A DNA stretch of 45,104 nucleotides from Candidatus Nitrosocaldus sp. (GTDB taxonomy: Archaea > Thermoproteota > Nitrososphaeria > Nitrososphaerales > Nitrosocaldaceae), in NCBI GenBank assembly GCA_025054855.1, contig JANWZS010000015.1:1-45104 (forward strand), written 5' to 3'. The first letter of the stretch is position 1, and each line of letters starts with the position of its first letter. The notes under the pieces were generated by a model. That model was not told the origin of the DNA, did not search any database, and was given only the letters and a program-made list of their open reading frames with translations. The position numbers were made by a program, and so were the translations under genes. Positions 31,516 to 44,209 of the stretch are shown one piece after another.

Positions 31516-32397
31516 CTACCCAACCATCTCCAGCAGTGAGTACGTTGTATCAACCCTACTCTTCCCTACACTACTCTCCTTCACCATCACAGCCTTGCCT
31601 GTGCTCTTGCCCAATGCAAGTGCTATGCTCGAGCATACGGGGCATAGCGCAGTGCTTATGGAATGCATGCTGGAGCATATCCTTGCTGTATCCCTGCCCT
31701 TTATAGTAACCCTCACCGTATCATCGCCATCTGCGCTGATCTCAACACTATCAGCCATCATGAACTCCTCGACGAAGAGCCTTCCAATGTTCATGCTCAA
31801 CTCCTCCATGCTCATCAGTGCAAAGTTGGCATCGAGCCTATCCTCGAAGAGATCGATCAGGCCCTGTGCTGGTGCCTTTATGATCATGCCCTTCTTCTGC
31901 AAATACTGCGCATCTGTAGTACCTATCTTGTCTATATCCTCGCCATCACCTACGCTAGCGATGTACTGGATCAGATCCGCTGTGCTGCTCTGCTCGCCCT
32001 GATGTACAAGTATGTAGCCTTGGCTCAGCCCACCTAGCCTGAGCTGCCTAGGGTAGAAGAGTATCGCATTGCCCACTGCGTAGCCTATATGCGATAGTAT
32101 ACTGCTCATACTCTTGCCGTATGCCTCCACCACTGCCCTGAATATCTCATCAGGGTAGTAGCGTGCTGATGTGATGTAGTATAGCACTGAGCCCCAGAAC
32201 GTCAGACCAAGGCCTATGAACGTGAGGATAAGAGAACTGTATATGTAGGAGAAGAGTAATGCCACTCCCCCTGTTGCAACCATGGGGAGTACGAATACAA
32301 ACCTACTCCTATCATATCTGTTGAGCCTTATAGGGCTCACGCTTGAACCATGGCCTGAACCATGCTCCTTACGCTCCTGGTTCACCTGTTCACTCAT
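31516..32397 (-). CDS. two-helix membrane protein with large cytoplasmic domain
   Basis: A 293-residue protein. A polar, His/Gly-rich N-terminus is followed by two close transmembrane helices (FVFVLPMVATGGVALLFSY and LILTFIGLGLTFWGSVLYYI), then about 200 residues of soluble domain. In that domain, a late CPVC motif (ALCPVCSSIALAL) could bind metal or be redox-active, although a single pair is not conclusive. It is the first gene of the five-gene leftward operon. The ATG at 32397 is supported by a TATA-like TAATAAATAT about 36 bases upstream; the frame opens further at 32424, which lies too close to that box. Function unknown. Confidence 0.68.
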   Translation of the reverse strand: MSEQVNQERKEHGSGHGSSVSPIRLNRYDRSRFVFVLPMVATGGVALLFSYIYSSLILTFIGLGLTFWGSVLYYITSARYYPDEIFRAVVEAYGKSMSSILSHIGYAVGNAILFYPRQLRLGGLSQGYILVHQGEQSSTADLIQYIASVGDGEDIDKIGTTDAQYLQKKGMIIKAPAQGLIDLFEDRLDANFALMSMEELSMNIGRLFVEEFMMADSVEISADGDDTVRVTIKGRDTARICSSMHSISTALCPVCSSIALALGKSTGKAVMVKESSVGKSRVDTTYSLLEMVG

Positions 32398-32427
32398 TAT
32401 TATACCTACCCTTCTACTCCTCACTCA

Positions 32428-32501: not shown

Positions 32502-33080
32502 ATGTCAAGCAACAGTAACAACAATATCAACATACCCACGGGAAGTGTAGCAGAGGGCGAGCATACGCTGGAGTTCTATGCCATGGATATGCTAAGCATA
32601 AGGGGTAGCGTAAGGCTCGTAAGGTTCACGAGGATGTCCCTGGATGCTGTTGCAATAGAGTTCGGTAACCCTACAGTTGTCAGGGATGGTACAACGTTCG
32701 TATCATCATCTACACCAGTTACGGTGAGCACTCCCTACAGCGTGCTGAAGGTGCAGTACCAGGTCGTCCCTGCTGGAAGGAACCCAACAGATTCAGCATG
32801 GGTAACATCCACTGGAAGCAGTATAACATTCACCATGCCAGCGACCCTTCAGGATGGTTCATACACCGTATTCTACAGAGCAACCACTGGCAATAGGCAT
32901 GGAAGCGTGAAGAGCATAACTGTAACGCTGGATAACACTCCACCAACTACAAGCATAAACATACAGGATGGTGCATTACTTACCGATAGCGATACCATAA
33001 CCATAACGGCAAGTGATTCAGGCTCTGGAGTAGCAAAGATATTCTACAGGATAGATGGAGGAGAGTGGGTATCCAACTAG
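32502..33080 (+). CDS. beta-sandwich protein beginning and ending in half-domains
   Basis: A 192-residue protein without a signal peptide or transmembrane segment. It opens with GEHTLEFYAMDMLSIRGSV, which is the second half of an OmpL47/Ig-like domain (usual pattern EGTHTLEYYAxDxxGN). It then holds one Ig-like module (FGNPTVVRDGTTFVSSSTP up to VKSITVTLDNTPPTTS). It closes with SGSGVAKIFYRIDGGEW and two further residues, which is the first half of the same OmpL47-like domain, and a stop. The missing continuation has the same form as the N-terminus of the protein at 39442. The gene has its own TATA box and a T-rich terminator, so it may be expressed. It could be a gene split by insertion, a cassette of a shuffled surface gene, or a true short protein. 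Confidence 0.6.
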   Translation: MSSNSNNNINIPTGSVAEGEHTLEFYAMDMLSIRGSVRLVRFTRMSLDAVAIEFGNPTVVRDGTTFVSSSTPVTVSTPYSVLKVQYQVVPAGRNPTDSAWVTSTGSSITFTMPATLQDGSYTVFYRATTGNRHGSVKSITVTLDNTPPTTSINIQDGALLTDSDTITITASDSGSGVAKIFYRIDGGEWVSN

Positions 33081-33456
33081 TTATATGACCCCCTCTCCTC
33101 CGCCTCTTTTTATATTATTTTTATAGTTTGTTCAATAATTATAGCAAGAGTAGCAGCAATCTCAATCTCTAGTTATGTGACCATCTACCAGCTCCCTACC
33201 TCATCGTGCCTACATCCGTGTGCACCTGCTACAGATCACTGCTATAAGCCTCCTTATAAATAGCCTATAACTGATCCTCACCATTGGCCCTAGAAACAAT
33301 ACAACTATAGCCTCTTAAGTATAAATATGTAATAGTTCACTGCAACTAATGTATTAGAAAGATGGTGATGATTCTAACCTACATTATATTATGGATGTGC
33401 TTATCTATGACCAGTATTATCTAGCCTAGTAGCGGGGGTACCTTGTTTATGACTAC
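33081..33456. other. intergenic region with degenerate direct repeat
   Basis: About 375 bases without a gene between convergent units. CTAGTTATATGACC (33077-33090, spanning the stop codon) recurs as CTAGTTATGTGACC at 33169-33182, 13 of 14 bases identical and 92 bases apart. A TATA-like CTTATAAATAG occurs near 33251 with no frame after it. No RNA gene is recognised. Confidence 0.5.
33105..33124 (+). terminator. T-rich terminator after the beta-sandwich fragment gene
   Basis: Runs of T (CTTTTTATATTATTTTTAT region) begin 25 bases after the stop at 33080, the usual form of archaeal transcription termination. Confidence 0.5.
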
Positions 33457-34623
33457 TCAACGTACATTGTATGCTAGCCTTATCGCATTAATGATATCAT
33501 CATAACCTACGATATCTAGGATGGTGAACCTGCCCTTCCTCGTGTATGGGGCGAGCCTCACAGCATGAAGGAACTCATCGAGAGATATACCCATGGAGTC
33601 CAGCGTTGTGGGGAATCCAAGTGCCTCATAGACATGCGTTATATCTGCAAACTCTGACCCTCTCAATGCCATAGCAAATACCGTTGCAAACCCCACCTGT
33701 ATGCCATGGGGCCTGGGGTGCTCAAGTATCCTATCCAGGGCATGGCTTATCAGATGCTCTGCCCCACTCGCTGGTCTCGATGAGCCTGCTATGCTCATGG
33801 CTATCCCACTCTGCACCAGACCCTCAGCAAGGCATACGAGCAGGTCATCATCGAGCAGTGGGTCTGTACTAGAACGGTGAACGCCAGCATCATCGCTCTT
33901 GCCCCTGATGGTACTACCATTGCTATGCCCATGGTTCTTCAGCACGTAGTAGATGAACCTCTCTGCAGCGTTCCTCGAGAGCATCTCAGCGAGTAGATCG
34001 ATCTTCACCCCTGTATGCTCGCTGGCAAGCCTCCAGTCCTGTACTGCTGATAGGTTGGATACCAGATCCCCTATACCAGCGAGTGTGGTCTGCCTTGGTG
34101 CCCTCCTGACTATATCAAGGTCCAGGAGTATGCCTGCTGGAGATGTTGTGACCATGCTATCACTACTACCATCACCGAACCTAGCAACCACTATGGGTGA
34201 TGCTATGCCATCATGAGATAATGCAGTTGGTATGGATATTAATGGTCTGGCAGCAGTATGCGCTGCATACTTGGCAGCATCAAGCACCCTTCCTCCTCCA
34301 ACCCCTGCTATGAATGTTGGATCGTACTCCATGATATGCCTAATCAGTAGCCCTGCAACCGTGTCCATTGACCGGTTGCTGCTGCTGTCTATGCCTATGC
34401 TCAGGCACTCCATCCCATGGGATATGTTACTGCATATCACCCTAGTTATACCGCTACCAGATATGAGCATGGGCCTCCTGGTATCTATACCCTCATGCTC
34501 TAGAATGGTGAGTAACCTGTTACCATCCAGCCCCCTTGATATATGCATGAAGAGGGGCACCCTTATCTCCCTGACCCAGGGCCTACCAGTACTACTGCTT
34601 ATCTCCATCTTCAGACCTTGCAT
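33457..34623 (-). CDS. egsA: sn-glycerol-1-phosphate dehydrogenase
   Basis: A 388-residue enzyme of the G1PDH/AraM group. It reduces dihydroxyacetone phosphate to sn-glycerol-1-phosphate, the backbone of archaeal lipids. Hallmarks are FIAGVGGGRVLDAAKYAA (NAD(P) site), LISIPTALSHDGIASPIV (catalytic Asp and substrate site), SGAEHLISHALD and HGIQVG (the two zinc-binding His). The insert of about 30 residues near IRGKSDDAGVH is Ser/Asp-rich and longer than usual. The start is one of several ATGs (34623, 34608); a TATA box CTATAAATAT at 34641-34650 favours 34623. It lies 79 bases after the flippase gene. Whether it is the only copy in the genome cannot be told here. Confidence 0.9.
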   Translation of the reverse strand: MQGLKMEISSSTGRPWVREIRVPLFMHISRGLDGNRLLTILEHEGIDTRRPMLISGSGITRVICSNISHGMECLSIGIDSSSNRSMDTVAGLLIRHIMEYDPTFIAGVGGGRVLDAAKYAAHTAARPLISIPTALSHDGIASPIVVARFGDGSSDSMVTTSPAGILLDLDIVRRAPRQTTLAGIGDLVSNLSAVQDWRLASEHTGVKIDLLAEMLSRNAAERFIYYVLKNHGHSNGSTIRGKSDDAGVHRSSTDPLLDDDLLVCLAEGLVQSGIAMSIAGSSRPASGAEHLISHALDRILEHPRPHGIQVGFATVFAMALRGSEFADITHVYEALGFPTTLDSMGISLDEFLHAVRLAPYTRKGRFTILDIVGYDDIINAIRLAYNVR

Positions 34624-34701
34624 GCTTATCATACACACTACTATAAATATGCTGGCCATGCTACTGTGAGCATAGTTAATCTGCAGGCTCGTAGAATAGG
34701 A

Positions 34702-36165
34702 CTAGTGCTTACCCCCATATCCAGTGATCGACCTTATGATCGACGATATCTCCCTACCCGTTATTGCCCTGATGGAGAATGATGCCAGAGCATATATCGC
34801 TAGCGTGACGATCAGGGTTACCAAGGCAGTAGCTATGTAGTAGAGCATCAGATGCCCAAATGCTACAGATGCTACGAGTGCAAGTGCTGGCCTTGCTACG
34901 GATACTCTGATGGTGAAGCCTATCCTCCTTACCAGCACTATGGATATGATCAGGTTGAGCATGGAGCCTATGAGCAGTGCATATGCTGCACCATCCATGC
35001 CCATGGCAAGTGCAAGCACGAGTAGAGGCGTGAGGGCTATACTTAGCGCTGACGATGTGGCATCCTTTATGGCAACGAGCCTTGCCCTGTCTGCTGCATT
35101 GAGTAGAGAGTTCATGACAGTACCTATGGAGTTGAGCGTGTATGCCACTGCAAGCATCCTCAGTGTCCCAACAGCATCAGCGTACGATGGTGCGATGATG
35201 CTGAGCACTATCCTAGGCTCTACCATGAGGAGTACGAGCATGAACCCGTTGAGTACCAGTGCTATCCTCAGTGCTGTATTGGCCAGTGCATTCACCCTCT
35301 CCCTGTTCCCCTTCTCTATCTCCTCCCTTGCAGTAGGGAGCATCATCCCTGCTATGGATACCAGTATGCTGCCTATCACCTGCGCTATGAGCGATGATAT
35401 GCCATAGAAGGCTGAGTACTGCATGCTCTGGGATGCAAGTACCATGACACCAACCTGGTTCCTTGCTATGTTCATGCCAGATGCCAGATAGTTGTAGCCA
35501 GAGAAGCCTAGAAGGCTCAGGACCTCCCTCCCGGATGGGCGATGTGTGCTCCTCCCAGTCGCTCTGATGAGCATGATGATGCTCATGGCTGATGCTATGA
35601 TCGATGCCAGCACGAAGGATACGACTATGGCGTCTGAGCCCCCTGTAAAGGATAGCAGGGCTACTGCAGATCCCAACCTCACAGCCTGGAATGTTGCCGT
35701 AGTCAGCACAACATACTTGGTCATGTGAAGACCCTGGTACGCACCCTGGAGCACCACCACGGTACCCTGAGTAGGTATGTACAGCATTGAAGCAAGTATG
35801 AGGAGTTGAGTGAATTCAGTATCGTATGGCTGGGTATAGTGCGCTACTACCGTCATCGTTACACCTGCAGCAACATTAATGCCTGCTGATAGCATGAGTG
35901 TTAACATGCTCAGGCTCCTGCCCACGTTGAGCCCCCTTGCGTTGTACTCTGCGATGTACCTTGAGAGCATCAGCTGGAATCCATTGGTTGTGAACGCTAT
36001 AACCACTGCTGTGTATGCGAATATGGTCATGGTCTGCCCTATGGCATGGGCATCTACGAGTCTAGCAAGCACTATCCAGAATAGTGCCCCGACTATGGAG
36101 TTTATGAGGTTGCTTAGTATCAGGAAGAACGAACCCCTAGCAAGCCTCTCGAACGGCTGATCCAT
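34702..36165 (-). CDS. polysaccharide (lipid-linked oligosaccharide) flippase, MATE/Wzx type
   Basis: A 487-residue integral membrane protein with about 14 hydrophobic segments. The N-terminus RLARGSFFLILSNLINSIVGALFWIVLARLV, seen in parts, matches the MOP-exporter polysaccharide biosynthesis (Wzx/RfbX) family, as does the following RYIAEYNARG. These proteins turn lipid-linked sugar chains over the membrane before they are attached to surface proteins or capsule. The cargo is unknown. The gene is divergent from the alkaline-phosphatase-fold gene at 36287, with a CATATAAGG box about 35 bases upstream. It supports a surface-glycan role for this region. Confidence 0.85.
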   Translation of the reverse strand: MDQPFERLARGSFFLILSNLINSIVGALFWIVLARLVDAHAIGQTMTIFAYTAVVIAFTTNGFQLMLSRYIAEYNARGLNVGRSLSMLTLMLSAGINVAAGVTMTVVAHYTQPYDTEFTQLLILASMLYIPTQGTVVVLQGAYQGLHMTKYVVLTTATFQAVRLGSAVALLSFTGGSDAIVVSFVLASIIASAMSIIMLIRATGRSTHRPSGREVLSLLGFSGYNYLASGMNIARNQVGVMVLASQSMQYSAFYGISSLIAQVIGSILVSIAGMMLPTAREEIEKGNRERVNALANTALRIALVLNGFMLVLLMVEPRIVLSIIAPSYADAVGTLRMLAVAYTLNSIGTVMNSLLNAADRARLVAIKDATSSALSIALTPLLVLALAMGMDGAAYALLIGSMLNLIISIVLVRRIGFTIRVSVARPALALVASVAFGHLMLYYIATALVTLIVTLAIYALASFSIRAITGREISSIIRSITGYGGKH

Positions 36166-36253
36166 TATTAAACCACCGTCCTATGCTCATCCCTCCTTAT
36201 ATGGTTATTTGTGTTAACTGCGATACTGTGTACCGCTGGCTCTTCAGGCATCA

Positions 36254-36264
36254 AGGATAATATG
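36254..36264 (+). promoter_or_regulatory. TATA box for the alkaline-phosphatase-fold gene
   Basis: AAGGATAATAT is centred about 28 bases before the ATG at 36287. A GGAGGTG close behind it is also a good Shine-Dalgarno-like sequence, although it sits about 15 bases from the start codon. Confidence 0.45.
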
Positions 36265-36286
36265 TGGAGGTGCCACACTATGGGTT

Positions 36287-37702
36287 ATGAGGCTGCTCGT
36301 CATAGGGCTGGATTCCATGCCTGCTGATGCACTGTTCAGCATGAAGGATGAACTACCCAACATAGGAAGGATGATAGATGATGGTGTGGCAGCAGTACTC
36401 GAGAGCTGCCATCCACCAATAACGATACCAGCATGGATGGTGATGATGACAGGTAGGAGCCCTGGCAGCCTAGGCATATACGGGTTCAGGCACAGGAAGG
36501 GCTACTCCTATACCGAAGGCTGGATAGCCAACTCTACCAGCGTGAAGGCCAAGAAGGTATGGGATTATCTGGCAGAGAATGGGCTCAGATCATGCCTTGT
36601 TGGGGTACCACCAAGCTACCCTCCATACCCTGTCAATGGCAGCATGATATCATGCTTCATAACCCCATCAGAGAAGGCTGATTACACGTACCCTAGAGGA
36701 TTGAGGCAGGAGGTTGAGAGCCTAGTTGGTAAGTACATCTTCGATGTTGTCTTCCGCACGGAGGACAGGGATGCCATACTCAAGGATATATACGAGATGA
36801 CTGAGAGGAGGTTCAAGGTCATCAAGTACCTGCTGAGTAAGGAGAGGTGGGACTACTTCATGTTCGTGGAGATAGGGGTTGATAGACTACATCATGCGTT
36901 CTGGAAGTTCCATGACAGGAACCATCCCAAGTACGTGCCAAGGAACAGGTATGAGGATGTTGTAAGGGAGTACTACAGGTTCATAGATGGTAAGATAGGT
37001 GAGCTGTTGCAGATGGTTGATGATGACACATGTGTTATGCTTGTATCTGATCATGGTACGACTAGCATGAAGGGTGCATTCTGCATAAATGAGTGGTTGA
37101 TAGAGAAGGGCTATCTAGTGCTCAAGAGCTACCCTGATGGGGTTACGGATCTTGACAAGTGTGATGTGGACTGGGGTAGAACAAAGGCATGGGGATGGGG
37201 GGGCTACTACGCCAGGATATTCCTGAATGTCAAGGGTAGGGAGGCACAGGGCACCATAGCAGGAGGGGAGGAGTATGAGAGGTTCAGGGATGAACTTGCC
37301 AGGGAGATCATGGACATCAGAGGACCAAGGAATGAGCGATGGGATACCAGGGTGTACAAGCCTGAACTGCTCTACAGGGAGTGCAATGGTGATAAGCCTG
37401 ATCTCATGGTCTACTTCGATAACCTGTACTGGCGCTCGGAGGGTAGTGTTGGGCATAGGGCATTGTACCTGTCAGAGAACAACACTGGTCCAGATGACTC
37501 GGTGCACTGGTACGATGGCGTATTCATACTCTACAGCAAGAGGAAGAAGGGTGCAGTAAAGGGAGGTAAGATGCTTGGGAGGTTGAGCATATACGATGTT
37601 GCACCAACCATACTTGCGATCATGGGCATCAAGCCAGGTGGTGATGCCATGGAGGGCAGGATAGTCGATGAGGCTGTGAGTTATGCTCTACAGGATGGAT
37701 GA
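36287..37702 (+). CDS. alkaline phosphatase superfamily phosphodiesterase/pyrophosphatase
   Basis: A 471-residue cytoplasmic enzyme with no signal peptide. It belongs to the nucleotide pyrophosphatase/phosphodiesterase branch of the alkaline phosphatase superfamily. The first metal Asp is in LLVIGLDSMPADAL, the nucleophile Thr in PPITIPAWMVMMTGRSP, and further metal ligands are in FVEIGVDRLHHAFW, VMLVSDHGTTSMKGAFC and a late VGHRALYLS. Such enzymes act on nucleotide sugars, phosphoesters or phosphonates; many archaeal copies lie in surface-polysaccharide clusters, as here. The next gene, coding for a small RHH-like protein ending in RLRALGYI, is a common companion of these enzymes. ATG 36287 is chosen because the DNA-encoded strand starts at once with MRLLVIGLDS. 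Confidence 0.87.
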   Translation: MRLLVIGLDSMPADALFSMKDELPNIGRMIDDGVAAVLESCHPPITIPAWMVMMTGRSPGSLGIYGFRHRKGYSYTEGWIANSTSVKAKKVWDYLAENGLRSCLVGVPPSYPPYPVNGSMISCFITPSEKADYTYPRGLRQEVESLVGKYIFDVVFRTEDRDAILKDIYEMTERRFKVIKYLLSKERWDYFMFVEIGVDRLHHAFWKFHDRNHPKYVPRNRYEDVVREYYRFIDGKIGELLQMVDDDTCVMLVSDHGTTSMKGAFCINEWLIEKGYLVLKSYPDGVTDLDKCDVDWGRTKAWGWGGYYARIFLNVKGREAQGTIAGGEEYERFRDELAREIMDIRGPRNERWDTRVYKPELLYRECNGDKPDLMVYFDNLYWRSEGSVGHRALYLSENNTGPDDSVHWYDGVFILYSKRKKGAVKGGKMLGRLSIYDVAPTILAIMGIKPGGDAMEGRIVDEAVSYALQDG

Positions 37703-37844
37703 TGTATGCATGCATCCACGCATATACCTGCCTATAGCCTATTATCGACCTACCTCACTGATCCTGGATACTATGTTATATAACATGCGTTACATGTCTC
37801 CTGCACAGTTTACTTTATAAGCATCCTCGGCATCATAGAGTCAG

Positions 37845-38141
37845 ATGGAGAGGGTGAGCATAAGCATAAACAGGGTACTGTATGAGAGGCTGAGGGAGTT
37901 CAACCAGTCGACCGCTACTGGATTCGGTAGTGTCGATGAGTACGTTGAGCATATACTCGAAGCATTCCTGAGGGAGTACGGCATGGCTGGTTATGGTTAT
38001 GGTTATGGTGATGATGATGATGATGCCATGAACCATCGCATGGTTGGGACGGTGGTGTTTGATGTACATGGAGCAGGCATATCAAAGGATGAGGAAGAGG
38101 AGGAGATAAAGAATAGGTTGAGGGCCCTCGGTTATATATAA
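37845..38141 (+). CDS. small protein, companion of alkaline-phosphatase-fold enzymes
   Basis: A 98-residue acidic protein. The N-terminal half (RVSISINRVLYERLREFNQ, then FGSVDEYVEHILEAFL) has the strand-helix-helix pattern of ribbon-helix-helix proteins. After a Gly-Tyr run and an Asp run (residues about 47-60) it ends KNRLRALGYI, a tail typical of a family that accompanies archaeal AP-superfamily and sulfatase-like genes. It may regulate or bind its neighbour. A CTTTATAAGC box lies about 30 bases upstream. The tandem GGTTAT codons and the GAT run make its middle variable in nature. Confidence 0.7.
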   Translation: MERVSISINRVLYERLREFNQSTATGFGSVDEYVEHILEAFLREYGMAGYGYGYGDDDDDAMNHRMVGTVVFDVHGAGISKDEEEEEIKNRLRALGYI

Positions 38142-38165
38142 GAAAGAAAGATCTCTAGATTCTCA

Positions 38166-38630
38166 TCATCTTGATCTGGATCTGGATACCTCCCTTAGCA
38201 CATCCAGCAGAGCCTTGAGGGATGATGAGAAGAAGTCCATGGCCTCCTTGGTATCGTTTACGCTTACAACCTTGATGAGCGCTGGTAGATCATCCCTGAT
38301 CATCTTGAACCCATGGAGCGTGCCATGCTGCATCATGGCTCTGAATAGAGCCTCTACCCTCTCCGCTATACCCCTATCTATCCTGCCCTTGGGGTCTGTG
38401 AAGCACAGTGCTATGCACCTTCCTGGTCGACCATCGCTACCATCATTCATGAGTCCAAGGAGTATCCCTACCTGCACACCATTTATGCTCATGTAGAAGT
38501 ACTTGCCCTTGACATGCTTCGACTTCTCATCCCATATGACTGGGCTGCCAACGCTCTCCCTTATCAGATGCTCTAAGGAGTTTAGTATGCTGGTGTAGGT
38601 ATCTGCACTACTCACATTACTGCTACTCAT
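38166..38630 (-). CDS. conserved-looking hypothetical protein
   Basis: A 154-residue soluble protein from ATG 38630. The N-terminus is Ser-rich; then a predicted alpha/beta domain follows (HLIRESVGSPVIWDEKSK, GKYFYMSINGVQVGILLGL, CIALCFTDPKGRIDRGIAERVEA). The C-terminal helix ends in RSRSR. I do not recognise the family. The gene overlaps nothing from this start and comes directly after cysC on the same strand (its ATG lies just beyond the cysC stop), so they are probably co-transcribed. An upstream ATG at 38660 would overlap cysC by 29 bases. Confidence 0.55.
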   Translation of the reverse strand: MSSSNVSSADTYTSILNSLEHLIRESVGSPVIWDEKSKHVKGKYFYMSINGVQVGILLGLMNDGSDGRPGRCIALCFTDPKGRIDRGIAERVEALFRAMMQHGTLHGFKMIRDDLPALIKVVSVNDTKEAMDFFSSSLKALLDVLREVSRSRSR

Positions 38631-38631
38631 A

Positions 38632-39243
38632 TCAACTACTGCCTTCCTTCTTGACTCCACTACCCTCTACGGCCTCTCTCACCTGTACAGTAGTAGTTGT
38701 AGCAGCAGTAGCAGCAGTTATGTAACCCAGCCTACGTAGCCCATCCATTATTATGTTGACGCACTCCTCGACGCTCTGCCTATCCGTATCAACCGTGATC
38801 TCTGGGTTCAGAGGCTCCTCGTATGGGTCCTGTATGCCAGTCATATCAGGTATCTCACCATTCAGTGCCTTCTTGTATAGACCCTTTGGGTCCCTCTTTA
38901 TGCATGTGTCTATTGAGCATTTAACGTAGACCTCTACAAAGTCCTTCAGCTCTTCCCTAGCGTATGCCCTGAAAGCTCTGTATGGAGAGATGAGTGAGAC
39001 CAGTGCTATAACACCGTTCCTTGTCAGCAGCTTGCTTATGTACACTACCCTTCTGGCATGAGTCTCCCTATCCTGCTTCGTGAATCCTAGATCTGGGCTG
39101 AGGTTCTTCCTCACCTCATCCCCATCGAGGAGTTCTGCCCTGTAACCCATATCCATGAGCCTCCTCTGTAATACCCTAGCAATCGTTGTCTTGCCAGAGC
39201 CTGATAGCCCTGTGAGCCAGACCGTGAAGCCCTTATTTAGCAT
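38632..39243 (-). CDS. cysC: adenylyl-sulfate (APS) kinase
   Basis: A 203-residue kinase that makes PAPS, the universal sulfate donor, from APS and ATP. The P-loop GLSGSGKT is at 12-19. Further family motifs are ELLDGDEVRKNLSPDLGF, then FVEVYVKCSIDTCIKRDPKGLYKKAL and a tail with DPYEEPLNPEITVDT. The last 30 residues are an Ala/Thr-rich low-complexity extension (encoded by repeated GCT-type triplets) not usual in the family. The ATG at 39243 has a TATA-like box TTATTAACC about 29 bases upstream; the frame opens at 39318. A sulfotransferase is encoded at 43250-44209, a natural user of PAPS. Confidence 0.92.
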   Translation of the reverse strand: MLNKGFTVWLTGLSGSGKTTIARVLQRRLMDMGYRAELLDGDEVRKNLSPDLGFTKQDRETHARRVVYISKLLTRNGVIALVSLISPYRAFRAYAREELKDFVEVYVKCSIDTCIKRDPKGLYKKALNGEIPDMTGIQDPYEEPLNPEITVDTDRQSVEECVNIIMDGLRRLGYITAATAATTTTVQVREAVEGSGVKKEGSS

Positions 39244-39263
39244 ACCTTGAAGGGGGATGGAGA

Positions 39264-39274
39264 GGTTAATAAGG
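39264..39274 (-). promoter_or_regulatory. TATA box for cysC
   Basis: CCTTATTAACC on the minus strand is centred about 27-29 bases before the ATG at 39243, which fixes the cysC start. Confidence 0.6.
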
Positions 39275-39407
39275 GTTAGTATGTAATGTACAGTATGGTA
39301 TTCACTGGTGGTATTCATCGCAGGAGATGAACCTGTTGCTTGTACGGTTAGTGTTGGTGAATATACAGAGAAGAGGAGTGGTAGTATACATTGGTTAGAT
39401 AATTGGA

Positions 39408-39418
39408 AGTATTTTTAG
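39408..39418 (+). promoter_or_regulatory. TATA-like box for the beta-helix protein
   Basis: AGTATTTTTAG is centred about 29 bases before the ATG at 39442. The frame is closed by a TAA about 15 bases upstream of that ATG, so the start is well defined. Confidence 0.5.
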
Positions 39419-39441
39419 CCTAAGCCTATCAATTTATCCAT

Positions 39442-41277
39442 ATGGTTCCACATAATAGTGAATTGTCTATACCAGCCAGGTCTGGTACACACAGGCTTGA
39501 GTACTATGCTACCGATAGGCTGAATAACCGCAGTAATGTAGGCTCTATCACGTTCACCTCATACAAGGTATTCAATGTCAAGGACTATGGAGCAAGAGGA
39601 GATGGTATAACAGATGATACACAAGCGATAAGGAATGCTATAGAGGCAGCAAGAGCCCATACATCATCAACAGATACCCCGGTGGTTGTATACTTCCCTG
39701 CAGGTACATACAGGATCAAGCAGTTCAAGGTACACTCGAACATGATACTCAAGGGTGATGGTATGCAGCGTACAAAGCTGGTAAGGTTCGTGGACAGGAA
39801 TGCGCCTAACTCTACGTATCAGGGGAGTGGTAATGAATCCAATATAACGGTGACAACGAACCTATTCAACTCTGGGACGTTCGAGCAGCTCCCATCCCCT
39901 CTGCCTCAAGATCATCCTGCAAGAGGCAGAACAGGTATATGGGCCAAATCTTTCATAGCCAACTACGATGCTAGTAGGAATGGCAATAGCAACATCGCCA
40001 TATACGATATGACCATCAACGGTAATGGGTATGCATTCAACATAGACCCGAACAGGCATACGCAGGTAGGCTTCAGGTATGCAGAGGGTAGCAATACCTA
40101 TACTGTCTCGTTATACAGAACCAAGAACATAAGGATAAATAATCTGAGGATAGAGGACAGTATGAACTGGTCGCTATCATGTGAGGAGTGTGAGGGGATA
40201 GATGTAGGCTATCTAGAGATAGATGGGAACACCAGATTCGGGAGCAGGGTGAGCGACAGGCTGAATCAGGATGGTGCAAACTTCAAGCACAGCAAGCATA
40301 TACGCATAGACAGGGTGGTGGTCCATGAGAGCTATGACTCTGCAGTGGTATTCGAGGTGGTCAACAGACCCTTGCCCGTGCACGATGTGAGGGTCAACTA
40401 TATAGAGTTGCACAGGCATATACATGCTGGTAGTGGTGTTGGTATAGTCTGCGGGAATGAAGAGGGAGGGGATGTATACGATGTGCATATCAAGCACATC
40501 AGGATATATGCAAGGGATACCAGCAGAACCCCTACGGGCAGGGAGAGGGGTAGCCATACATCGCACTTCGTTGATATAGGGTATGAGGACTATCCTGAGT
40601 TCAGGGGCAGGGAGGGTAAGGGGAAGGCATACAACATAAGGATAGATAAGATAGAGATAACTGGATTCTCGCACAGGATACTGCCCTATGACTTCCAGAC
40701 TGGTGCAGCAAAGGCACCAGAGGCTGGTATGCCCATACTCCAGATCAACTCCAGACCGAGGGAGCTCTACTACGATCCTAACTCGCCACAGACATCGGCA
40801 TGGAATATCAACAGGGTAAGGGATGTTACCATAGGCGAGGTGATAGTGGATTACCAGATGCAGGATTATGCTGCAACAGACCAGTACGGAGCACAGTTCG
40901 GTCTAAGGGTGATCGGGGCAGAGAATGTACATATAGGCAGGTTCCACAGCATGAACAAGAGCAGTAGAGGTATCAGCGATGTACAGGTACTATACTCCAG
41001 TAACGTTGCGCTGCACGAACTGTACATCAAGAGGGTCAATACTGGGGGAGCATCGCTGATAACCATCAACAACTCGACTGGAGTACTGCTGGATAATGTA
41101 AGGATACCGCTGCTGGATGATGGTCAGAAGCAGGGTGGAGCAGCCTTGAGGGTTGAGGGGAGTAGCAGCAGGGATATACTGCTGAGGTACAGGGAGTTGC
41201 AGACCAGAAGCCAGATCAACTGGGGCAGTGATGTGCCAGAGGCTAATAAGGCAACGGTGATAGTACAGCCTGTTTAG
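39442..41277 (+). CDS. pectate-lyase-superfamily beta-helix protein with N-terminal half-domain
   Basis: A 611-residue protein. The first 40 residues (SGTHRLEYYATDRLNNRSNV) are the second half of an OmpL47/Ig-like domain. From residue about 45 the Pectate_lyase_3 pattern FNVKDYGARGDGITDDTQAIRNAI begins, with VYFPAGTYRIKQFKV and ILKGDG, followed by a right-handed parallel beta-helix with many IRIDKI-type coils up to the C-terminus. Relatives are polysaccharide lyases or glycan-modifying enzymes and phage/surface depolymerases; catalytic residues cannot be assigned. There is no signal peptide, although a surface role is expected. The half-domain fits the open end of the protein at 32502-33080. 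A T-rich stretch near 41333 can end transcription. Confidence 0.75.
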   Translation: MVPHNSELSIPARSGTHRLEYYATDRLNNRSNVGSITFTSYKVFNVKDYGARGDGITDDTQAIRNAIEAARAHTSSTDTPVVVYFPAGTYRIKQFKVHSNMILKGDGMQRTKLVRFVDRNAPNSTYQGSGNESNITVTTNLFNSGTFEQLPSPLPQDHPARGRTGIWAKSFIANYDASRNGNSNIAIYDMTINGNGYAFNIDPNRHTQVGFRYAEGSNTYTVSLYRTKNIRINNLRIEDSMNWSLSCEECEGIDVGYLEIDGNTRFGSRVSDRLNQDGANFKHSKHIRIDRVVVHESYDSAVVFEVVNRPLPVHDVRVNYIELHRHIHAGSGVGIVCGNEEGGDVYDVHIKHIRIYARDTSRTPTGRERGSHTSHFVDIGYEDYPEFRGREGKGKAYNIRIDKIEITGFSHRILPYDFQTGAAKAPEAGMPILQINSRPRELYYDPNSPQTSAWNINRVRDVTIGEVIVDYQMQDYAATDQYGAQFGLRVIGAENVHIGRFHSMNKSSRGISDVQVLYSSNVALHELYIKRVNTGGASLITINNSTGVLLDNVRIPLLDDGQKQGGAALRVEGSSSRDILLRYRELQTRSQINWGSDVPEANKATVIVQPV

Positions 41278-41310: not shown

Positions 41311-43248
41311 TTAGTGTTTTATCCAACCCCAATTTTTTGTTATAGTTAGCAATATAAATGATAATGCCAGTATAATTATGTGGAATGGAAACTCTGGTAC
41401 AACGACTGTGTTGAACTCTGCACTCTTACCATCGAGATTGAGCCTTATTGTTGCCGATCCCTCTTCCTCTACCCTGATCACATGCTGTTCCATCCTGCCC
41501 CCTTCATAAATCACCTTACCTCCCTGCATCACAATGATCTTATAGTCTTTATCCAACTGCCTCTCACGCCTATCGAAGAACTCTACAGAGATGACCACTG
41601 GCTTGCTTGTGTCCAGATTATCAGATAGCCTGATCCTGGCTATTACATCATCTAGCAGTGTCTCATATACGGGACCCCTGAACTCCACATCTTGTACTGG
41701 TTCAGGTTCTGGTGCAGGTTCTTCTAGGTCAGTGGTTGCTCTTGCTACCTCAACCCTTACAATCCTCTCATCCATACTAGGTTCATAGCCATCAAGGAAG
41801 AATCTTGCTGAGACCCTCTGCTCCCCTTCCTCTACGAACGTGTATGATACCTTTGCTATACCTGCTATAGTTCGTACAGTTGCTATCACATTATCGTTTA
41901 TCAGAAAGTTTACATATCCAAAGGTTATTGGTCTGCCTTGTTCATCCTTGACAGTTGCTGTGAGCTCAAGGGTATCGTACTTCCTTACTGTCTGTGGCAC
42001 ATCGAGTGTTATAGATGAGCGTTGTGCTGTGTGGATGGGGTTGAACGATACTATCCTGTATATCTGCGATGGACCCATGCTTCCTATGTATATCCAACCA
42101 TCATACTCCTCTACATCAATCAAAGCACCAGTTAGACCCTTGTAGACTATGACATCCTGTACATCAGTATAGTCAGGAGGTCTCAGTATAACCCTGTATA
42201 TTGCAGAGTCATTAACCGTTGTGAAGAAGAGGTTGTACTTGAACTCCTCACCATACCTATCGCCAGTGTAGAATAGCATGTTCGTAGGGGCAACTGCCAT
42301 ATGCCCTGAGGAGAGTAAAGGTCTCTCGAACCTATCCAGGTCCTCGTTGGCAATGGTGTATTGCCTGTTAACATCCCTAACCTCTGGCTTGGATTTCTTG
42401 CTTATATACTGCTGGTCATAGCCTAGGAGGAGTGGCCATCCATAGTTCCTTCCAGGATAGAGTATGTTCACCTCATCATCCGTGTCTGGACCATTCTCAG
42501 TTACGAAGAGGATTCCAGTTAGAGGATGTACTGCTATACCAAACACATTCCTGTGCCCTAGCGTGTAGATAGTAGAGTTGGGGAATGGGTTATCATCTGG
42601 TATGCTGCCATCCCTGTTTATGCGTAGTATCTTGCCTGCAAGGGAATCCATGCGTTGTGATGTATGCTCTGGAAATGGTATATCTGTCGTGCCAGGTGTA
42701 TGGCCAATTGCATCGCCTGTGGTTATGTACATGGTATTATCTTTACCAAATACTAGAGGTCCTCCTATATGAACCCTATTGCCAGGCTTCTCAAGTAGTA
42801 CCTTCATATCTGTAAGCATCGTCCTCTCATCCAGCATGAATCTAGCAACCCTTGTGTACTGTTTGCCATCCTCTCCCTTTATGCTCCAGTGCAGGTATAT
42901 GTAACGGTTGTTACTGAACTCAGGGTCTATTGCCAAGCCAACTAGACCTCTCTCTAAGGGATGTTCTCCCTCCTCTCCAAGATAGATATCAACCTTACCT
43001 ATCTCCTTGTAATCAAAACCTCCTTCTTTAATGGTTATGATGTAGACCTTACCATCCCTTAAACCTCCACATATGATCCTCCCATCAGGAAGGAACTCAA
43101 AGTTGGCACCACAGTGACCTAAACGAGATAACCTGTCAGCAACAACCTCATGATCAACAGTATATGCACTGGCAGCGCTAGTCAAACCAGCAAGCACCGT
43201 GAGGAAGAAGGTTATATAGAGTATAGATAATAAGTATAGGAGTCTCAT
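41311..43248 (-). CDS. secreted PQQ-dependent sugar dehydrogenase-like protein with PEFP C-terminus
   Basis: A 645-residue exported protein. A signal peptide (residues about 1-27) leads into a six-bladed beta-propeller of the glucose/sorbosone dehydrogenase family: GLVGLAIDPEFSNNRYIYLH, GKILRINRDGSIPDDNPF, YTLGHRNVFGIAVHP, TENGPDTDDEVN and YGWPLLLG. A beta domain follows (ITLDVPQTVRKYDTLELTATV; about residues 415-500), then an acidic Pro-rich linker (EEPAPEPEPVQ) and another beta domain. The C-terminus is VPEFPFHIIILALSFILL with a short basic tail, a membrane anchor of a PEF-type form distinct from the VPE-GAI tails. Members oxidise aldoses or act as sugar-binding propellers. The start lies one base after the stop of the sulfotransferase gene, so the two are translated together. 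Confidence 0.85.
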   Translation of the reverse strand: MRLLYLLSILYITFFLTVLAGLTSAASAYTVDHEVVADRLSRLGHCGANFEFLPDGRIICGGLRDGKVYIITIKEGGFDYKEIGKVDIYLGEEGEHPLERGLVGLAIDPEFSNNRYIYLHWSIKGEDGKQYTRVARFMLDERTMLTDMKVLLEKPGNRVHIGGPLVFGKDNTMYITTGDAIGHTPGTTDIPFPEHTSQRMDSLAGKILRINRDGSIPDDNPFPNSTIYTLGHRNVFGIAVHPLTGILFVTENGPDTDDEVNILYPGRNYGWPLLLGYDQQYISKKSKPEVRDVNRQYTIANEDLDRFERPLLSSGHMAVAPTNMLFYTGDRYGEEFKYNLFFTTVNDSAIYRVILRPPDYTDVQDVIVYKGLTGALIDVEEYDGWIYIGSMGPSQIYRIVSFNPIHTAQRSSITLDVPQTVRKYDTLELTATVKDEQGRPITFGYVNFLINDNVIATVRTIAGIAKVSYTFVEEGEQRVSARFFLDGYEPSMDERIVRVEVARATTDLEEPAPEPEPVQDVEFRGPVYETLLDDVIARIRLSDNLDTSKPVVISVEFFDRRERQLDKDYKIIVMQGGKVIYEGGRMEQHVIRVEEEGSATIRLNLDGKSAEFNTVVVPEFPFHIIILALSFILLTITKNWGWIKH

Positions 43249-43249
43249 A

Positions 43250-44209
43250 TCAGTTGGTATCTTTTGACTTAGTATTAAGGACTTCTAACAGTATTCCACG
43301 TTCTTTACAGTATAAAACCGTTCGATTATAATCCTCCTCCAGTACAGTCTTCAGTGATGAAGGCATCTTCTCCAATAATTCTCTATACACCTGTTGTTTA
43401 TCTTCAGGGTTAGAAACTGCAGAAAGTAGGCTCCTCCAGCGTCTATGGAGAGGACTTAATACGGAATATATTAACCGTGATCCATACTGCATATGTTCTA
43501 AACGCTTCGCAAATACATGACTCGCATACTCGAATCTCGACAGTATCTTGTTGGCAATTCTGCTGTTTATGTATAGGCTCTCATTACTCGTAACATACTT
43601 TACTGCTATCCTCTCTACACCTAGGAAATCACATATCCTATCCATAACTTGTTGTGGATTCTCCATGAGTGCTTTCTGTTGTAGAACTAGTAGATTAGAG
43701 CCAAATTCATCATAAAATCTTGAGGTCTTCTCATAAAATAGGAAATCGTTTATATGAGGAGTTATCCTGTTCAACCATGTTGAGAAATCGTAATCGTGAA
43801 GCCCTAAACCCTTACTAAACAGATAATATGATATCAATCTGTTCTTCTGTTCCCTGATCATCAGTACTATCTTTGCGTTAGGAGAGAATTCTCTTATGTA
43901 CCTTGCCACATTAACAGAGAGGTCTATGGCAGAGAATGGTTGCGATGCATCAACCCTATACTTCTTTCTCGCATTCTCTTTATATAATCTCTCATACTCT
44001 TCATATGGTAATACTGTCCATATTCTATCTTTGCCTTGAAGCTGTGTCCTGCTGAGTTTAGAGAGGGGTAGACTTGTTGCGAGCGTATTAGGTTCTTTGA
44101 TGGGTATTACATAGATATCTTTATGTTGTGCTAGATATTCGCATAAGGCTGATGTCCCACACTTTGGAAATCCTGGAATGAATAGGTTCGGTTTCCAGTC
44201 AGATTCCAT
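43250..44209 (-). CDS. PAPS-dependent sulfotransferase
   Basis: A 319-residue protein of the sulfotransferase family, which moves sulfate from PAPS to sugars or other acceptors. The 5-prime phosphosulfate-binding loop is PGFPKCGTSAL (residues 12-22), near the N-terminus as in the family; the 3-prime phosphate-binding motif is VLMIREQKNRLISYY, with Arg119, Arg124 and Ser127. Later QQVMDRICDFLGV resembles the tail of the family. There is no signal or membrane segment, so it acts in the cytoplasm or on the membrane inner face, before export. The gene is visibly more A/T-rich than most of the window, hinting at transfer. It is the first gene of an operon with the sugar dehydrogenase; CysC is 4 kb away. 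Confidence 0.85.
   Translation of the reverse strand: MESDWKPNLFIPGFPKCGTSALCEYLAQHKDIYVIPIKEPNTLATSLPLSKLSRTQLQGKDRIWTVLPYEEYERLYKENARKKYRVDASQPFSAIDLSVNVARYIREFSPNAKIVLMIREQKNRLISYYLFSKGLGLHDYDFSTWLNRITPHINDFLFYEKTSRFYDEFGSNLLVLQQKALMENPQQVMDRICDFLGVERIAVKYVTSNESLYINSRIANKILSRFEYASHVFAKRLEHMQYGSRLIYSVLSPLHRRWRSLLSAVSNPEDKQQVYRELLEKMPSSLKTVLEEDYNRTVLYCKERGILLEVLNTKSKDTN

Follow-up and report, generated by a model that had tools for sequence, protein, structure and literature searches.

In chaperone-usher pili, such as type 1 and P pili, the subunits have donor and acceptor ends, and a one-ended protein caps the chain. In the strand-complemented surface assemblies known to us, a single strand is lent and the subunits are exported. 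Glycan-cutting enzymes can also be encoded within the gene cluster of the glycan itself, as are the hydrolases and lyases of the BcsZ, AlgL and PelA type, which are exported by means of a signal peptide; we know of none that has a half-domain at its N-terminus. An archaeal assembly, the thread filament of Sulfolobus acidocaldarius (Saci_0406), is built head to tail, with the N-terminal segment of one subunit completing, in trans, the incomplete Ig-like domain of its neighbour (PMC9715654).

Here we describe a locus of Candidatus Nitrosocaldus sp. at which the two halves of an OmpL47/Ig-like domain lie on different proteins. The genus comprises thermophilic ammonia-oxidising archaea of hot springs. 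We found nothing on these proteins in the literature. A preliminary description of the same DNA had offered three explanations for the halves, namely a large gene broken by an insertion, cassettes of a gene that is reshuffled, and separate proteins that complement each other's split domain.

The locus and the genomes compared

The window, that is, the whole stretch of DNA analysed (45,104 nucleotides), is the entire contig C6 of a 1.56 Mb genome (G000; 42 contigs, 98.9% complete). The genomes compared were a one-contig Nitrosocaldus genome of 1.577 Mb (G001), Ca. N. schleperae (G004), Ca. N. tengchongensis (G005), G002, G003 (just 67% complete) and G006, which represents another genus of the family and is hereafter called the sister genus. 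The coordinates and reading frames previously given for the two half-domain genes proved correct (Table 1). The shorter protein is referred to as sh192; the longer one matched both of its beta-helix families above the cut-off (PF12708, 1.5e-20, 74.3 bits; PF00295, 23.1 bits).

Table 1. Features of the half-domain genes and of the glycan island in the window
Feature	Position	Strand	Evidence
sh192, 192 aa: half-domain, one complete Ig/FN3-like domain, half-domain	32502..33080	+	ORF, conservation, dN/dS
sh192 N-terminal second half ('EFG' strands), OmpL47/Ig-like	32502..32636	+	gain on joining with NF047446; independent HMM positions 49-74
sh192 complete central Ig/FN3-like domain	32637..32942	+	AF2 pLDDT; Foldseek to FN3; Big_13 weak
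sh192 C-terminal first half ('ABC' strands), ending in AKIFYRIDGGEW, putative 'socket'	32943..33077	+	NF047446 positions 2-31
G1PDH-like (Fe-ADH_2) gene, between sh192 and the beta-helix gene	33457..34659	-	PF13685; present in G001 and G004 too
Polysaccharide flippase (Wzx-like), island	34702..36165	-	PF01943
Type I phosphodiesterase / alkaline-phosphatase-fold gene, island	36287..37702	+	PF01663
cysC, APS kinase (sulfate activation), divergent from the half-domain gene	38632..39318	-	PF01583, 5e-61
Beta-helix protein, 611 aa: half-domain N-terminus, pectate-lyase/GH28-like beta-helix	39442..41277	+	PF12708, PF00295
Beta-helix protein N-terminal second half ('EFG'), putative 'plug'	39442..39558	+	NF047446 positions 41-67; homologous N-termini in N. 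schleperae and the sister genus
Sulfotransferase, island	43250..44209	-	PF13469, 8.8e-12

Three further genes of the window, all on the minus strand, are recorded here. An exosortase-like membrane protein (258-1232) scored below the Pfam cut-off. A GSDH protein with a signal peptide (41311-43248) carries a C-terminal VPEFP motif and a transmembrane tail, which resemble archaeal sorting signals, and RTX-type calcium-binding repeats (PF00353) lie at the contig end (44380-45093).

Two complementary halves of one domain

The OmpL47-type domain is represented by the NCBIfam profile NF047446, which has 68 positions and a curated cut-off of 40 bits. sh192 had been described as ending, and the beta-helix protein as starting, in the middle of such a domain, and the profile bears this out: the C-terminus of sh192 matched positions 2-31 (37.1 bits) and the N-terminus of the beta-helix protein positions 41-67 (26.8 bits), so that the whole domain is present in neither chain. 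When the two were joined, positions 2-67 were covered in a single stretch at 62.9 bits. Only the joined halves pass the cut-off, in agreement with the earlier statement that together they make one full domain. That sh192 also begins with a second half was likewise borne out, since joining its own ends, C-terminal half before N-terminal half, gave 47.1 bits as opposed to 37.1 bits for the C-terminus alone (21.6 to 29.7 bits with Pfam Big_7). The N-terminus of a GH5 protein on another contig (C4) of the same genome matched positions 40-66. Compared with the PDB, the joined domain gave insignificant matches only, to FN3/X1-like modules and a turret protein.

In addition, an independent HMM, from whose training set this archaeal family was left out, was used to score the C-terminus of sh192 joined to each of 1000 ORF N-termini from the sister genus. 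The six best scores, together with a seventh by a tie at 37.4 bits, belonged to precisely the seven known second-half proteins of that genome; the match of the halves is therefore not due to chance.

Conservation of sh192

The start and stop of sh192 are identical in four Nitrosocaldus species (the window genome, G001, N. schleperae and N. tengchongensis), the three other proteins being 75-79% identical to that of the window. The C-terminal first half is near-invariant in five genomes. With dN/dS values of 0.15-0.35 over the whole gene, sh192 is under purifying selection; its separate parts mostly gave values below 0.35 each, with up to 0.58 in the short N-terminal half for the closest pair. 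The conservation of both ends between species shows that the split is a maintained feature. G005 and G002 yielded no cysC and no second-half enzyme, yet in both the stop of sh192 is at the same position and no second half follows it.

These data bear directly on the proposal that one large gene was split by the insertion of a 6.3 kb cassette, which would fit the complementarity of the halves, their common plus strand and the island between them. Ends conserved in several species and kept under purifying selection are at odds with a broken gene, as is the unchanged stop in genomes where cysC or the second-half gene was not detected. Moreover, the intact fusion was found in none of 60 relatives and nowhere in a sample of 398 genomes of the phylum. 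We therefore reject this explanation as extremely improbable.

The fifth copy of sh192 (G002; L026:8048-8620) is frameshifted by a 2-nt deletion, which may reflect decay, possibly as a joint loss with cysC and the second-half enzymes, or an assembly error. Read-through of the sh192 stop was also considered and rejected, the extension beyond the stop not being conserved. Separately, over about the last 14 codons before the final two (window 33030-33071, VAKIFYRIDGGEW) the codon is identical in 92% of comparisons, whereas the mean is 66% (sd 8%); a preference for certain codons or some other constraint may account for this.

The second half precedes unrelated enzymes

Besides the copies of sh192, the second half stands directly after the start codon of 11 genes in four genomes of the family. 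Outside the sister genus these encode the beta-helix protein of the window, a GH5 cellulase on C4, a GH5 protein in G001 and a beta-helix protein in N. schleperae that is cut by the contig end. The seven of the sister genus comprise five GH5 proteins (for the one on C21, the assignment follows from similarity to the protein on C13), one other beta-helix protein and one protein without an assigned type. The segment thus precedes GH5 cellulases, two kinds of beta-helix and one unassigned protein, which makes at least three unrelated enzyme types. This recurrence strengthens the case for split-domain complementation. Selection is less clear here than for sh192, with dN/dS values of about 0.3-0.8 for the segment among close copies.

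The neighbourhood of these genes is linked to sulfation. A divergent cysC is the neighbour in 8 of the 11 cases (in the window, in G001, in N. schleperae and on five contigs of the sister genus) and a divergent sulfotransferase in one case in the sister genus; for one further gene the contig ends before the neighbour, and the gene on C4 is isolated. cysC and the second-half enzymes also occur together, both being present in G000, G001, G004 and G006 and neither being found in G002, G003 or G005. In the phylum sample, 10 matches (E <= 1e-4) were obtained outside the genus, all of them within longer ORFs and in most cases preceded by a visible first half. Within the sample searched, an exposed half is therefore special to this family.

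A very old gene fission would account for part of this picture: an ancestral protein with an Ig-like domain and an enzyme would have been split once and both parts kept, bound or not, their present function possibly differing from assembly. In relatives from the sister genus, the same enzymes do follow complete domains at the N-terminus, but these domains are of the cadherin type rather than OmpL47, and a single fission does not explain why sh192 also begins with a second half. We regard such an origin as improbable.

Cassette exchange in the glycan island

The sister genus has seven copies of cysC in one bin of 1.5 Mb; six of these copies lie on small contigs that also carry glycosyltransferases, membrane proteins and pieces of flippase genes. 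The clusters may well be one surface-glycan island in the versions of several strains. DNA identity between the cluster copies is high through cysC and then drops in the intergenic region. In one pair (C13:1187-3230, L093, and C21:861-2970, L095), identity starting at cysC stays at about 95% as far as position +720 nt or so in the GH5 gene, beyond which it falls to about 50%, marking a recombination breakpoint inside the enzyme gene. Cassette exchange is thus real in the island, as a mosaic anchored on cysC.

To this extent the earlier idea of reshuffled cassettes was right. As an account of the half-domains, it would make the common cut the exchange point of a reshuffled gene family, which would agree with second-half genes occupying the same position but encoding different enzymes from one genome to the next. 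The breakpoints, however, are intergenic or lie in the middle of the enzyme gene, none being at the half-domain border, so exchange does not explain the half-domain. Furthermore, the conserved 3′ end of sh192 has a single DNA match per genome, sh192 itself is invariable, and no long direct repeats flank the sh192 and beta-helix genes. Recombination as the reason for the cut is therefore largely refuted, and we give it only a slight chance.

Two candidate junction sites were rejected. A recombination site at the half-domain border itself was set aside, the sh192 3′ end being a single locus per genome and sliding identity placing the breakpoints elsewhere. The motif TAGGCTAA, which occurs after the sh192 stop and before some ATGs of second-half genes, is no commoner in the window than expected by chance and is missing at some junctions.

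A different constant front was seen on two other proteins of the sister genus. The C9 protein (L029:6225-8714) consists of a signal peptide, LamG and cadherin-like domains and a pectate-lyase-like start followed by GH5, and its cadherin/pectate-lyase start is identical to that of a beta-helix protein on C7 (L027:8055-9743); the front is thus constant and the enzyme different.

Export signals and predicted structures

The absence of signal peptides from the half-domain proteins was confirmed, the maximum 15-residue hydropathy within the first 45 residues being 0.14-0.83, compared with 2.4-2.6 in secreted controls. In 10 of the 11 non-sh192 genes an in-frame stop precedes the ATG by 3-8 codons; in the GH5 gene on C4 it does so by 20 codons. 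The conserved DNA ahead of the sh192 ATG was considered as a possible source of a signal peptide, but this was rejected, as the frame is broken by a 2-nt indel in N. tengchongensis. Both partners have the lack of a signal peptide in common, so it does not separate them. The C9 protein, a relative of the same enzymes, does carry one. Each of the two proteins had also been credited with a TATA box of its own; the TATA-like TTTATTATTAAG that precedes 32502 may instead belong to the divergent gene (31516-32424), and a second AT-rich element appears to lie nearer to the 32502 ATG.

In an AF2 model of the sh192 monomer built from a three-sequence alignment, residues 51-140 or so are folded (pLDDT about 73-90), whereas residues 1-45 and most of 148-192 have pLDDT below 50. 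With so shallow an alignment, the low values at the ends are weak evidence and say only that the model did not close the halves on each other. According to the preliminary description, its proposals would be refuted by distant genomes with exactly the same two short proteins and well-folded predicted ends; sh192 is indeed present in other species, but its ends are predicted, at low confidence, to be unfolded. Foldseek with the sh192 model returned generic FN3/Ig matches, none at E <= 0.001. For the beta-helix protein, single-sequence AF2 placed two strands (17-25 and 30-38) before the helix, at low confidence and too poorly to be used.

A possible split-domain assembly

The best reading of these observations, which we put forward tentatively and on sequence grounds, is a non-covalent split-domain assembly linked to a sulfated surface glycan. 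Because sh192 has a half-domain at each end, the two together making one whole domain, its subunits are proposed to link up head to tail, such that the C-terminal half (A-B-C) left open in one accepts the N-terminal half (E-F-G) of the next. Pairing between sh192 chains would be likelier than within one, as the ends of Ig-like domains sit at opposite poles. Enzymes with the N-terminal half only could dock on the free C-terminal end of sh192 and cap it, and docking would place a glycan-cutting enzyme on a constant sh192 scaffold. In a more specific and somewhat unlikely version, sh192 would be a constant two-ended adaptor for exchangeable, cassette-borne glycan enzymes, each sulfated-glycan cluster that is acquired bringing a fitting enzyme.

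The earlier proposal of split-domain complementation is thus the best that remains of the three, but it meets its main objection in the sister genus, where no first-half end was found in 1.39 Mb of the assembly against seven second halves and sh192 is not present at the syntenic place. There the first half may have been missed, through lack of assembly or excessive divergence, or the second half may not need one. Further points against an assembly are that N. tengchongensis has sh192 while no second-half enzyme was found there, that export signals are absent, and that dN/dS in the second half is comparatively high.

The same facts could suit a somewhat less likely alternative, in which the N-terminal half would be a self-sufficient small module derived from OmpL47 (a beta-hairpin cap or dimerisation element), and the open end of sh192 would be a separate remnant or would close within its chain or in a swapped dimer. 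Second halves without a detectable partner are expected under this alternative, sh192 carries both halves and could be self-contained, and the two strands predicted before the beta-helix would agree with it. It is less easily reconciled with a conserved motif that corresponds to a strand pair without its sheet partner, with the same segment preceding unrelated folds, or with a first half of sh192 that is near-invariant where nothing follows it. Should the split-domain assembly be correct, the division of one domain between an adaptor that is conserved and a family of enzymes that can be swapped would be a new assembly principle, and the route by which proteins lacking signal peptides reach the surface in thermophilic ammonia oxidisers would then call for an explanation.

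Comparison with known systems

When joined, the halves score like a complete member of the OmpL47-type domain (NF047446; related to Big_7 and Big_13), which in the other genomes examined is whole and within longer proteins, whereas here it is divided between two chains. The locus resembles BcsZ, AlgL and PelA in having a gene for a glycan-cutting enzyme inside a glycan cluster and differs from them in the half-domain N-terminus and the lack of a signal peptide. A constant short N-terminal module followed by an exchangeable beta-helix or hydrolase also recalls phage tail-spikes and depolymerases, and PHROG tail-spike matches cover the beta-helix start of the 39442..41277 protein. Unlike tail-spikes, however, the genes lie in sulfated-glycan clusters, with no virion genes among the annotated genes of the window, and an origin from a virus or tail-spike was rejected in that no relatives were found in IMG/VR viral contigs. 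A shufflon-type arrangement is not supported, as the breakpoints are not at the module border and long direct repeats are missing near the two genes.

Chaperone-usher pili differ in lending a single donor strand and in relying on a dedicated chaperone and usher, neither of which was noted here. The proposed assembly would work like that of the archaeal thread, with which the locus would share the in-trans completion of an Ig-like domain at an archaeal cell surface; for the thread the assembly was shown (PMC9715654), and here it is suggested by complementary sequences, the ends of the sh192 monomer being unfolded in the AF2 model. We do not class the locus with the donor-strand-complemented filaments, since an export signal is absent and a half-domain would be lent. 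The thread protein has a Sec signal peptide, belongs to another fold family and donates one strand, whereas here a half-domain of about three strands would be donated, from proteins without a signal peptide, and the same N-terminal half is carried by enzymes as well.
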